33,985 nt of DNA from the IMG/VR virus record IMGVR_UViG_3300020160_000080, positions 1 through 33,985 of that record; one strand, given 5' to 3'. The position numbers were made by a program, and so were the translations under genes. Position 1 is the stretch's first letter, and each line of letters starts with the position of its first letter. Positions 19,838 to 29,206 of the stretch are shown piece after piece. The DNA comes from a virus. The notes under the pieces were generated by a model that ran no database searches, was not told the DNA's origin, and was given only the letters and a program-made list of their open reading frames with translations.

Positions 19838-20023
19838 ATGATGACTGTTGAGCAAATCAAGAAAAGGCTGGAAGACGCCAACCTGAAGAGGGTGGCCGAG
19901 AATGCCGGCGTGCATCCTGCGACCGTTTACCGCTTCATGCAGGACGAGTCCAAGCCCCTGTACGAGACGGTGAAGGCACTGTCGGACTACCTGACACGGC
20001 AGGAGGCAGCGGCACATGGCTGA
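19838..20023 (+). CDS. Small helix-turn-helix regulator (Cro-like position)
   Basis: 61 residues; AGAGGT lies 7 nt before ATG 19838, and a second ATG follows at once. LKRVAENAGVHPATVYRFMQDE (about 16-37) is a helix-turn-helix of the lambda-repressor/Cro or YdaS type, followed by a short helix. It has no dimerisation or cleavage domain. It probably binds the palindrome at 19780-19793 and sets the balance of the two early promoters. Its end overlaps the primase start by 8 nt. Confidence 0.8.
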   Translation: MMTVEQIKKRLEDANLKRVAENAGVHPATVYRFMQDESKPLYETVKALSDYLTRQEAAAHG

Positions 20024-22037
20024 CCTTTCCAACGTCCTTGGCGGCCCCTGGTCGCCACCTCCAGAAAAGCGCATCGCACCACCCGAAGAACAACTGCGCG
20101 ACGCCATGCTGGCGTCCGGCCTGGAGCCGCCAGACGAGCTGCTGCTGGACGGAAAGATTCACAGGTTCAAGTCCGGCACAAAGGGCAGCGGCAGTCACGG
20201 AGGTGACAAGCCAGGCTGGTACCTGGTGTTCGGCGACGGTGTGCCGGCCGGTCGCTTCGGCTGCTGGCGCGCAGGTGTCGAGGTTACATGGCGTGCAGAG
20301 GTCGGGCGCAAGCTGACAGCAACCGAGGAGATGGCGCATGCAAGGCGCATGGCCGAGGCCAAGGCGCTGCGCGACGCCGAGCTGGAGCGCAAGCACGAGG
20401 TGGCAGCGGCGACCGTGGAGACAATCTGGACCTCGGCCCAGACAGCCAGCCCTGAGCACCCATACCTGGCTCGCAAAGGTATCGGCGTGCATGGGGCGCG
20501 CGTGACCGGCGACGGTCGTCTGGTGGTGCCGCTGTATGGGCAAGACGGCACCCTGGCCACCCTGCAGTACATCTCGCACGACGGAGGCAAGCTGTACCAC
20601 CCAGGCGGCCAGACAGGAGGAAAGTTCTGGATGGTAGGCTCACTGGATGAGCCTGGCACGCTGTTTGTGGCCGAGGGCTTTGCCACGGCAGCGACCATCC
20701 ACGAGACGACCGGCAGGCCGGTGGTGGTGGCTTACAGCGCCAGCAACTTGGTGCCGGTGACTGGAACCTTGCGCGAGATGCACGGTGCCAGCCAGGACAT
20801 CGTGATCGTGGCCGACAACGACAAGTCAGGAGTTGGCCAGCGGTATGCAGAACAGGCCTCGGCCAAATTTGGAGCCAGGATGGTCATGCCGCCAATCGAG
20901 GGAGATGCAAACGACTACGTGCAGGCAGGGCACGACCTGGCCAGCCTTCTCATGCCCAGCCACGATGACTGGCTGACCCCGGCTGACGACTTCTCGGCCC
21001 AGCCCTCACCCATCTCCTGGCTGATCAAACGCTGGCTGCAGTCCCAAGCGCTAATCATGGTCCACGGCCCATCCGGCGGCGGCAAGACCTTCGTGGTGCT
21101 CGACTGGTGCCTCAGGATTGCCTCACAAGCGCCTGAATGGGCTGGCCAAAAGGTTCGGCCAGGCACGGTGGTGTACTTGGCCGGTGAAGGCCACCACGGC
21201 CTGCGTGGGCGCGTCGCAGCCTGGAAGCACCACCACCAAGCCGGACACTTGGCCATGTGGCTGTCCAAAGACGGCTGCGACCTCAACACCCCGACCGGCT
21301 ACCTGAAGGTGGTCGAGCAGGTCAGGATGCTGCCAGAGAACCCGTCCGTCATCGTGGTCGACACCCTGCACCGATTCCTGGCCGGAGACGAAAACAGCGC
21401 TCAGGATGCCAAAACCATGCTGGACGCCTGCAATGCCCTGATGATGGAGTTCAAGTGCTCGGTCATCCTGGTGCACCACACCGGCGTCTCCGACGAGGCC
21501 CAGCACAGGGCGCGAGGCTCAAGCGCATGGCGCGGCGCTCTGGACATCGAGATCAGCATCGTGCCAGGCAAGGACGGCGTGCCCATGCAGATCGTGCAGC
21601 GCAAGTCCAAAGACGCAGAGCTGGCGCAGACGGTTCACGTCGAGCTGCAGCAGGTGACCATCCCCGGCTGGTACGACGAGGACAACCAGCCGGTCACCAG
21701 CGCAGTGATCGTGGAGACCTCAGCACCCGTCCAAATCACCAAAAAGGACAGCAAGATCGATACCCACCGCAAAACACTTGAGAGCGCTTGGTGGGGCACA
21801 GGCGCTGAAGAGCGGGAGGGTTTACCCTACATCAGCAGGTCGGCACTCAAAGACAAGCTGGCAGCCGATGGCCGAAAACCTCGGACCATTGAGAACGATC
21901 TTAGCCCAGCCTACCCAGACAAATTGATCGGCGCACTCATTCTGGCCGAAATTATCAGCCCACTTGAGCACGGCTGGGTGGTGGTCGACGACGTCCAATC
22001 GAGTGCCATGATGATGCGAAAAGGTGGTAAATCGTGA
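20016..22037 (+). CDS. Toprim primase / RecA-like replicative helicase
   Basis: 673 residues, with AGGAGG 9 nt before ATG. An N-terminal domain (about 1-130) contains GKIHRFKSG and GWYLVFGDG as in phage Toprim primases. The Toprim core has VAEGFATAAT with E220 and VIVADNDKSG with D267 and D269. A RecA/RepA-like ATPase follows: Walker A GPSGGGKT (351-358), VIVVDTLHRF as Walker B and ILVHHTG. A C-terminal region ends in MMMRKGGKS. It should prime and unwind DNA at the fork. The stop codon abuts the structured intergenic region. Confidence 0.9.
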   Translation: MADLSNVLGGPWSPPPEKRIAPPEEQLRDAMLASGLEPPDELLLDGKIHRFKSGTKGSGSHGGDKPGWYLVFGDGVPAGRFGCWRAGVEVTWRAEVGRKLTATEEMAHARRMAEAKALRDAELERKHEVAAATVETIWTSAQTASPEHPYLARKGIGVHGARVTGDGRLVVPLYGQDGTLATLQYISHDGGKLYHPGGQTGGKFWMVGSLDEPGTLFVAEGFATAATIHETTGRPVVVAYSASNLVPVTGTLREMHGASQDIVIVADNDKSGVGQRYAEQASAKFGARMVMPPIEGDANDYVQAGHDLASLLMPSHDDWLTPADDFSAQPSPISWLIKRWLQSQALIMVHGPSGGGKTFVVLDWCLRIASQAPEWAGQKVRPGTVVYLAGEGHHGLRGRVAAWKHHHQAGHLAMWLSKDGCDLNTPTGYLKVVEQVRMLPENPSVIVVDTLHRFLAGDENSAQDAKTMLDACNALMMEFKCSVILVHHTGVSDEAQHRARGSSAWRGALDIEISIVPGKDGVPMQIVQRKSKDAELAQTVHVELQQVTIPGWYDEDNQPVTSAVIVETSAPVQITKKDSKIDTHRKTLESAWWGTGAEEREGLPYISRSALKDKLAADGRKPRTIENDLSPAYPDKLIGALILAEIISPLEHGWVVVDDVQSSAMMMRKGGKS

Positions 22038-22159
22038 TGCCCCCTAGCCCCCTGAATCCCCCTCTAGGGTGTTTTGGGGTTAGGGGGCAAAACGCACGAA
22101 AAAGCCCCCTCCCCTCCCCTCACTCTCTTAAGAGTGAGGGGGCAGGGGGGCATCGATGC
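22038..22159. repeat. GC-rich inverted repeats in 172-nt intergenic region
   Basis: Three nested dyads. (1) TGCCCCCTAGCCCC at 22038-22051 pairs with GGGGTTAGGGGGCA at 22076-22089, one G-T. (2) CCCCTCACTCT (22116-22126) pairs with AGAGTGAGGGG (22131-22141), loop CTTA. It extends outward through GCCCCCT (22104-22110) and AGGGGGGC (22144-22151). (3) GCATCGATGC (22150-22159) is palindromic. GATGCCCCC at the left end also pairs with GGGGGCATC at the right. No T-run follows, so these do not look like ordinary terminators. Candidates are an origin, a packaging site or a structured RNA. Confidence 0.75.
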
Positions 22160-22179
22160 GGCAGGTTTCCAGAGAAAAG

Positions 22180-22188
22180 TTATCCACA
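22180..22188 (+). promoter_or_regulatory. Consensus DnaA box
   Basis: TTATCCACA, identical to the high-affinity DnaA 9-mer, between the GC-rich dyads and the next gene. It is the only one I noticed in the window. A single 9-mer can occur by chance. Confidence 0.5.
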
Positions 22189-22209
22189 GGAAAGTGAGTA
22201 GGCGCTAAC

Positions 22210-28370: not shown

Positions 28371-28985
28371 ATGAGCTATCAAGTAATTTTCACCCAAGGC
28401 ACGGCCACCGTTACTGTGCCAGCAGGCGAGAAAATCGCCGTTCAAGCCTTTTCACCAGCACTGGTGTTTCAGGAAGTTGGCTTCCCCAACTTTCCTGATT
28501 CGCAGGATTTGCTGACCACGGTCGAGAACACCACCTACGTGTCGAGCGCATTTACCAATGCCACCAGCGTGACCATTCAAGCCGGTGCATCGGGTGCGTA
28601 CTACTCTGTTGGTGTTGCTCCTGACATCAGCAACAATGGCAACTGGCAACCTCAAGGTGCGCCAGCCAACATTGCTGACGGTGGCTCGATGGCGGCAACT
28701 GCCGCTAACGTGCTGACTGGCATCATCACTGCAACCCCAACCGCATCACGCGACATTCAACTGCCAACAGGTGCAAACCTTGACCTGGCAACTGAGTGGG
28801 CGATTGGTGATTCGTTTGACTTCAGCGTCATTACTTTGGCTGCATTTGCTTTGACCCTCACGGTCAATACAAACGTGACCATCGTGGGTGCTGCGGCAAC
28901 TGCTGCAACGTCTGGTGCATCTGCACGCTTCCGTTGCCGTAAGACTGCGGCTGACACCTTCGTCGTCTATCGTATCGGTGGTTAA
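28371..28985 (+). CDS. Head-associated structural / decoration candidate
   Basis: 204 residues, AAGGAG before the ATG. Beta-rich: YQVIFTQGTATVTVPAGEKI, a YVSSAFTNATSVTIQAG segment, then a second beta domain with alternating hydrophobics. There is no catalytic motif. A gene of this kind directly after coat is often a capsid decoration or head-fibre protein. The N-terminal half recurs, to my memory, in many environmental phages. Decoration is an inference from position. Confidence 0.7.
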   Translation: MSYQVIFTQGTATVTVPAGEKIAVQAFSPALVFQEVGFPNFPDSQDLLTTVENTTYVSSAFTNATSVTIQAGASGAYYSVGVAPDISNNGNWQPQGAPANIADGGSMAATAANVLTGIITATPTASRDIQLPTGANLDLATEWAIGDSFDFSVITLAAFALTLTVNTNVTIVGAAATAATSGASARFRCRKTAADTFVVYRIGG

Positions 28986-29019: not shown

Positions 29020-29035
29020 CACTTAGGAGCGAATC

Positions 29036-29206
29036 ATGCCAATGACCAAAGGTTACTCAAAAAAGACCATCGGTAAAAATATTGCAATGGAGATGAAGTC
29101 CGGCAAGCCCCAAAAGCAAGCCGTGGCAATGTCTTTGAACGTGGCAAGCAAGGCAGCGAAAGCCGCAGGCAAGCCCAGCAAAGCACCGATGAAGAAGATG
29201 AAATGA
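29036..29206 (+). CDS. Small basic protein, DUF6496-like
   Basis: A 56-residue gene with TAGGAG before the ATG. About one residue in four is Lys: MTKGYSKKTIGKNIAMEMK, KPQKQAVAMSLNVA, ending PMKKMK. KPQKQAVA-type proteins are common in phages, and the segment resembles DUF6496. It may bind DNA or be a minor head protein. Ends by ATGA overlap with the next gene. Confidence 0.75.
   Translation: MPMTKGYSKKTIGKNIAMEMKSGKPQKQAVAMSLNVASKAAKAAGKPSKAPMKKMK

Follow-up and report, generated by a model that had tools for sequence, protein, structure and literature searches.

A candidate iteron-and-hairpin replication origin behind the primase-helicase gene of an environmental phage and its relatives

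The window analysed here is the whole 33,985-nt stretch of a viral record (IMG/VR IMGVR_UViG_3300020160_000080), and the element under study is a GC-rich gap of 172 nt containing two large hairpins, which lies directly behind a primase-helicase gene (Table 1). Downstream of the element follow a 60-codon frame (orf60), then TerS and TerL. The sequence-only reading of this DNA took the gap to be the longest gene-free stretch of the window, which is plausible, and listed an origin, a packaging site, an insulating structure or a small RNA as its possible functions, a list that our results partly support; the repeated word, the DnaA box and a layout that is kept in relatives despite changed sequence did not figure in it. 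Elsewhere in the window, what looks like a gap between an ORF end at 28985 and an ORF start at 29203 is taken up by a small lysine-rich reading frame (29035-29202) that starts MPMTKGYSKKTIGKNIAMEMKSGK.

Table 1. Positions of the element, its parts and the gene upstream of it in the window
Feature	Position	Strand	Remarks
Primase-helicase gene, proposed initiator	20016..22037	+	673 aa; Pfam Toprim_3, AAA_25; PDB 1g8y
C-terminal 112 aa, modelled winged helix, proposed iteron reader	21699..22034	+	AlphaFold2, winged-helix matches
Codons 627-634, putatively the end of the recognition helix and the turn	21894..21917	+	Three class-separating residues
Whole element, proposed origin	22038..22209	.	From primase stop to next reading frame
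Hairpin 1	22038..22089	.	Four iteron copies: CCCCCT at 22040, 22048, 22058; AGGGGG at 22082
GGGGGCAAAA	22083..22092	+	GGGGC(A)AAA-like motif, found here in many relatives whatever their word; by eye
Outer stem around hairpin 2	22093..22160	.	Minimum-energy fold; pairs co-change in relatives
Hairpin 2	22104..22151	.	Three iteron copies: CCCCCT at 22105; AGGGGG at 22137, 22144; fold
ATGCGGC	22156..22162	+	Directly past hairpin 2, retained with variants in relatives; by eye
Perfect DnaA box TTATCCACA	22180..22188	+	Sole DnaA box of the window

The plus strand of the element folds to -85.1 kcal/mol, compared with a shuffle mean of -62.5 (z = -5.68, reached by 0 of 200 dinucleotide shuffles), and the minus strand gives z = -4.16 against dinucleotide shuffles. 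The earlier expectation that the segment is fold-prone is borne out, but not the suggestion that an outer pairing closes the whole of it: the two arms named for that purpose, GATGCCCCC (22036-22044) and GGGGGCATC (22146-22154), are present, and yet the minimum-energy fold prefers two local hairpins (22038-22089 and ~22104-22151). In the outer stem around hairpin 2, CGCACGA (22093-22099) pairs with TCG (22153-22155) and TGCG (22157-22160), leaving A22156 bulged, and hairpin 2 itself also has an apical stem with an A/T-rich apex. The C-runs pointed out previously, of 5, 4 and 4 at 22105-22119 and three of 5 at 22040-22062, are where they were said to be. The G-quadruplex proneness that had been read into the segment did not hold, as a strict motif (four runs of at least 3 G, with loops of 1-7 or 1-12) is absent from both strands and the words of the relatives are often without G-runs. 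An intrinsic terminator on the plus strand was also rejected, since a terminator scan gave no site at the element and hairpin 2 is followed by CATCGATGCGG; hairpin 2 has a T-run solely in the minus-strand reading.

The 6-bp word CCCCCT/AGGGGG occurs seven times within 150 nt of the element, a density that 0 of 200 shuffles match, and seven of the eight AGGGGG copies of the 34-kb window fall in the element. Short repeats thus cluster in the element far beyond chance, as iterons do, and at 22180-22188 these repeats are adjoined by a DnaA box, a common though not universal companion of iterons. An AT-rich stretch that could be an unwinding region is visible by eye in the Alteromonas phages, and no obvious one is seen in the window. 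A repeat search of the phage's own record with the element returned self matches only.

The upstream gene encodes a protein made up of a Toprim primase, an RSF1010-RepA-like AAA_25 helicase and a C-terminal winged-helix domain. The helicase part matches Pfam AAA_25 (E=2e-36) and, as a sequence match, RSF1010 RepA (PDB 1g8y, E=6.5e-6), which places it with the RepA-type helicases on sequence, its hexamer state being putative. Of the two domains that mark initiators of the P4 alpha/pRN1 type, the SF3 helicase domain is missing from the protein, which has the RepA-like AAA_25 instead, whereas the C-terminal winged-helix domain is indicated by an AlphaFold2 model and a fold search. The model, for which four alignment rows from named phage records were left out, has a mean pLDDT of 86.8, with 86 residues over 90. 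The fold search returned general winged-helix proteins, SelB among them (the best match at Z 7.3, with PDB E-values above 0.1), and pointed to no particular initiator. P4 alpha is not among the matches listed, an absence that carries no weight.

Scanning IMG/VR with TerL, the primase and the primase C-terminal domain yielded 320 loci, to which we added the named genomes of Salicola phage CGphi29, Idiomarinaceae phage 1N2-2, Alteromonas phages XX1924 and PB15, and the circular MW202867; 198 distinct elements behind a primase stop codon, that of the window among them, were compared. The last ~100 aa of the protein are common to relatives that differ strongly in their catalytic parts, with N-termini that are either Toprim or Prim-Pol-like (the Prim-Pol call was made by sequence inspection) and helicases of two kinds. 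Catalytic modules are swapped wholesale among the relatives, and the C-terminal domain and the element remain. A Prim-Pol-like N-terminus was seen in loci L216 and L007, and a different helicase part in L048, L019 and L031. A search for plasmid relatives of one C-terminal domain found none, and an alignment led by L216 showed too little conservation to serve as a query.

Most of the elements share one plan: a hairpin 1 bearing the word, often a GGGGCAAAA-like motif, a hairpin 2 with its outer stem, and an ATGCGG-like end. Each lineage uses its own word of 5-7 nt, and about ten word classes can be told apart, with GGGGGC in the class of the window and GGGGCA, GGGTCA, GGGACA, GGTAAC, GGGAAC, GGTTCA, GGTACA, GGTACG, GGGTAC or GGGGGA in other lineages; described by eye, the form GGNNCA fits many of these in one orientation. 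In 198 of 223 loci the repeats are densest directly behind the primase stop, and the cluster is the only one in the genome in the three cases of the window, MW202867 and XX1924. Neighbouring repeats of the same orientation are often spaced by 9-10 bp (7 bp in the GGTAAC class). In the Alteromonas phages the copies are mostly direct and many are unpaired; XX1924 and PB15 have 12 GGTTCA in 230 nt and 1N2-2 has 11 GGTACA copies, in each case clustered far above chance. Four relatives share the first 130 nt of the window's element without a difference, while the median block identity of their primase coding DNA is 93-97%; the element is better conserved than the adjacent coding DNA. Perfect DnaA boxes reach a 56-fold higher density in the 260 nt behind the primase than in the rest of the same loci (211 boxes in 51 kb vs 88 in 1.19 Mb, a rough count in that the loci overlap and are related), and 92 of the 198 elements are without a perfect box.

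Several loci depart from the common pattern. A 70-aa frame lies between primase and element in L296 (2850-3062) and L295, and the displaced element, which follows this frame, keeps the two-hairpin layout and has AGGGTA words. The elements of L106 and L113 are mixed arrays in which GGTAAC and GGGAAC words occur together, possibly caught between two word classes. Only a weak repeat cluster is found in L054, and in L286 and L289 the C-terminal domain is present with no repeat cluster in the ~2.4 kb downstream of the primase; in these two (in L286, 2590-3500) the site may be elsewhere or lost. L129 has no origin-like repeats after its primase, and its very dense GCCAGA repeats at 1801-2160, which reach 13 copies within 160 nt, are unrelated to the element.

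The word classes follow the sequence of the C-terminal domain. Proteins of the GGTAAC and GGGAAC classes are otherwise very similar, and in a full-length alignment only 3 of 267 variable columns separate them perfectly, namely residues 627, 633 and 634, which in the modelled domain lie within helix 61-68 and the turn that follows it. At residue 627, GGTAAC goes with Gln in 18 of 18 and GGGAAC with Val in 23 of 24. In a tree built from residues 1-561, eight joint switches of the word and residue 627 are seen, and on well supported branches six of six independent pairs agree (p = 0.031); as residue 627 was picked for separating the classes, the tree speaks for repeated joint switching and is not an independent discovery of the residue. 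Between GGGTCA and GGGGGC, the class of the window, eight of the ten separating columns of the whole protein lie in residues 601-650.

Co-variation of this kind could arise if recombination exchanged the element together with the 3' end of the gene, with no functional contact between protein and repeats, and indeed the two adjoin each other in a group in which catalytic modules are clearly exchanged. Joint exchange, however, should leave class-separating sites along the ~120 coding nt from residue 634 to the stop codon and the 43 nt after it, and there are none. At the nucleotide level, GGTAAC and GGGAAC are told apart by only 5 of the 1054 variable coding sites, all of them in the codons of residues 627-634; no such site occurs from there to the stop or in the 43 nt that follow it, and further on sites of the element separate the two classes again. 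Since no separating site lies between the helix and the repeats, hitch-hiking of a single block is not the explanation, and we regard joint recombination as extremely improbable. The C-terminal domain of the primase-helicase is the candidate reader of the repeats, with which it co-varies strongly at residues 627-634.

The apical stems of hairpin 2 vary by lineage and yet remain complementary: the 138 elements whose loop consists of A and T only, mostly TATA, TTTA or TTA, have 40 distinct perfect apical hairpins, a few short chance ones included. The hairpin finder mis-centres a few hairpins (e.g. L302, L380). When 18 relatives were aligned, 11 of the 25 pairs proved to be preserved by two-sided changes, some of them outside the repeats. 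The hairpin structure is real. The sequence-only reading had named a lack of covariation or conservation in related phages as grounds for giving it up; both were found, and its proposal stands in that respect. A strong fold with covariation would also suit a structured RNA, be it regulatory, small or acting in mRNA processing or attenuation, that is read by the C-terminal domain, and some winged-helix domains do bind RNA, SelB being one of the structural matches. Nevertheless, G.U pairs are not favoured on the plus strand, where distinct hairpins show 16 G.T vs 34 A.C wobble contexts, many copies in the Alteromonas phages are direct and unpaired, the spacing of the repeats is often 9-10 bp, and DnaA boxes are present. 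Against Rfam 15 the element gave no match above the gathering score, and four sub-threshold hits at a relaxed setting were at chance level. An RNA is thus very unlikely, and the small RNA listed earlier finds no backing on the plus strand; a minus-strand RNA is excluded less clearly. The hairpin may work as folded DNA.

The presence of TerS and TerL directly downstream, in the window and in many relatives, would fit a pac or cos site serving these terminase genes. However, for 54 of 147 elements a homology check, blind to other terminase families, detected neither TerS nor TerL nor orf60 within 2.3 kb downstream, and in Alteromonas phage XX1924 the terminase is ~5 kb away and the element is still at the primase. 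The words, moreover, co-vary with the primase domain. None of the loci in bacterial genomes found via TerL has the C-terminal domain. The element is linked to the primase and not to the terminase, and the packaging site that had been among the options listed is, in our judgement, hardly credible.

Based on these comparisons of sequence we propose that the element is very probably the iteron-plus-hairpin replication origin of the phage, bound by its own primase-helicase and working in the manner of the SaPI, pRN1 and P4 origins. We favour this reading because of the repeat clusters, the constant linkage to the primase, the coupled switches of word and residue, the enrichment of DnaA boxes, the conservation of the element and the winged-helix model, and because the element persists next to differing catalytic modules and behind an inserted small gene; of the functions suggested previously, the origin is the one that the coupling between iterons and primase-helicase domain, the DnaA boxes and the primase linkage support. 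Counted against it are the lack of a clear GC-skew signal, the elements without a perfect DnaA box, the two loci without a cluster, the weak cluster of L054 and the choice, for the tree, of a residue already seen to separate the classes. The skew of the circular MW202867 gives no origin signal, and in XX1924 the minimum lies ~2.4 kb away and is confounded by gene direction.

The absence of a skew signal would equally suit a site at which the primase-helicase binds for autoregulation, incompatibility or another DNA transaction while replication starts elsewhere, and the coupling demonstrates that word and domain co-vary, not that an origin fires. On the other hand, no second repeat cluster is found in the window, MW202867 or XX1924, DnaA boxes adjoin the repeats, an operator located 3' of the gene's own coding region would be odd, and in published helicase initiators arranged like this one the site is the origin (PMC7581432, PMC4234260). 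We therefore consider a binding site other than the origin unlikely. For the origin that we propose, physical binding, opening, firing and a role of the folded hairpins are inferred steps, which may be pictured as follows. The C-terminal winged-helix domain would bind the iterons (GGGGGC/CCCCCT here) and bring the RepA-type helicase and the primase to them, whereupon the DNA would be opened, probably with the assistance of host DnaA at the adjacent box. Hairpins, hairpin 2 above all, may then form on the opened strand, and once folded may be a platform for helicase assembly or priming. More tentatively, we entertain the possibility, which we hold to be somewhat doubtful, that in a large and mostly uncultured group of phages a 6-bp word (often GGNNCA) and a few residues of the recognition helix are rewritten repeatedly within a hairpin frame that is kept although its bases change, the hairpin serving helicase loading or priming as folded single-stranded DNA and the words acting as compatibility types.

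Known systems share parts of this arrangement. In SaPI Rep and SCCmec Cch2, a C-terminal domain reads repeats downstream of the helicase gene (PMC7581432, citing Ubeda 2007). Short repeats directly downstream of a helicase gene, with a C-terminal domain as their reader (proposed here), are common to both, but there the primase is separate, whereas here primase, helicase and reading domain are in one protein, the helicase is RSF1010-RepA-like, the repeats lie inside two large hairpins and there are DnaA boxes. The pRN1 origin is a stem-loop of ~100 nt downstream of a primase-helicase-winged-helix gene, an origin of the same kind is predicted for Bordetella phages BIP-1/BPP-1, and in this kind the structure is retained as the sequence changes, with no iterons reported as origin (PMC4234260). 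Our element resembles these in being a stem-loop downstream of such a gene and in a structure that outlasts its sequence, but pRN1 has an SF3 helicase and a Prim-Pol, and here the repeats, co-varying with the domain, are the main feature. At the oriV of RSF1010 (IncQ), iterons, the RepA helicase and hairpins for priming act with the proteins RepA, RepB' and RepC (PMC4234260). Iterons, a RepA-type helicase and hairpins are found here too, though with one protein in place of three and with shorter iterons. Those of RSF1010 are about 20 bp. The alpha protein of P4 unites a primase, a helicase and, at the C-terminus, a winged-helix domain for origin binding in a single chain; its helicase is of the SF3 type, and a second site, crr, is required. 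The phage protein has the same three parts in one polypeptide, but neither the SF3 helicase nor the second site of P4 has a counterpart here, where there is a single cluster. Alpha is described as a fused helicase-primase (PMC7145576). The phage protein is functionally like the initiators of the published systems, but we do not file it in the P4 alpha or pRN1 families because its helicase is RepA-like and not SF3.

In the literature seen, which consisted of titles and abstracts with few subscription journals, the replication of these phages is not described, and within that scope no account of where it starts was found. The element and the primase-helicase now give this widespread group of environmental phages a candidate origin and a candidate initiator. 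The about ten word classes, with eight parallel switches between two of them, make up a natural data set for the DNA recognition code of winged-helix domains. If the words are indeed compatibility types, co-infecting relatives would be kept off each other's origins, which would bear on their competition within the cell.
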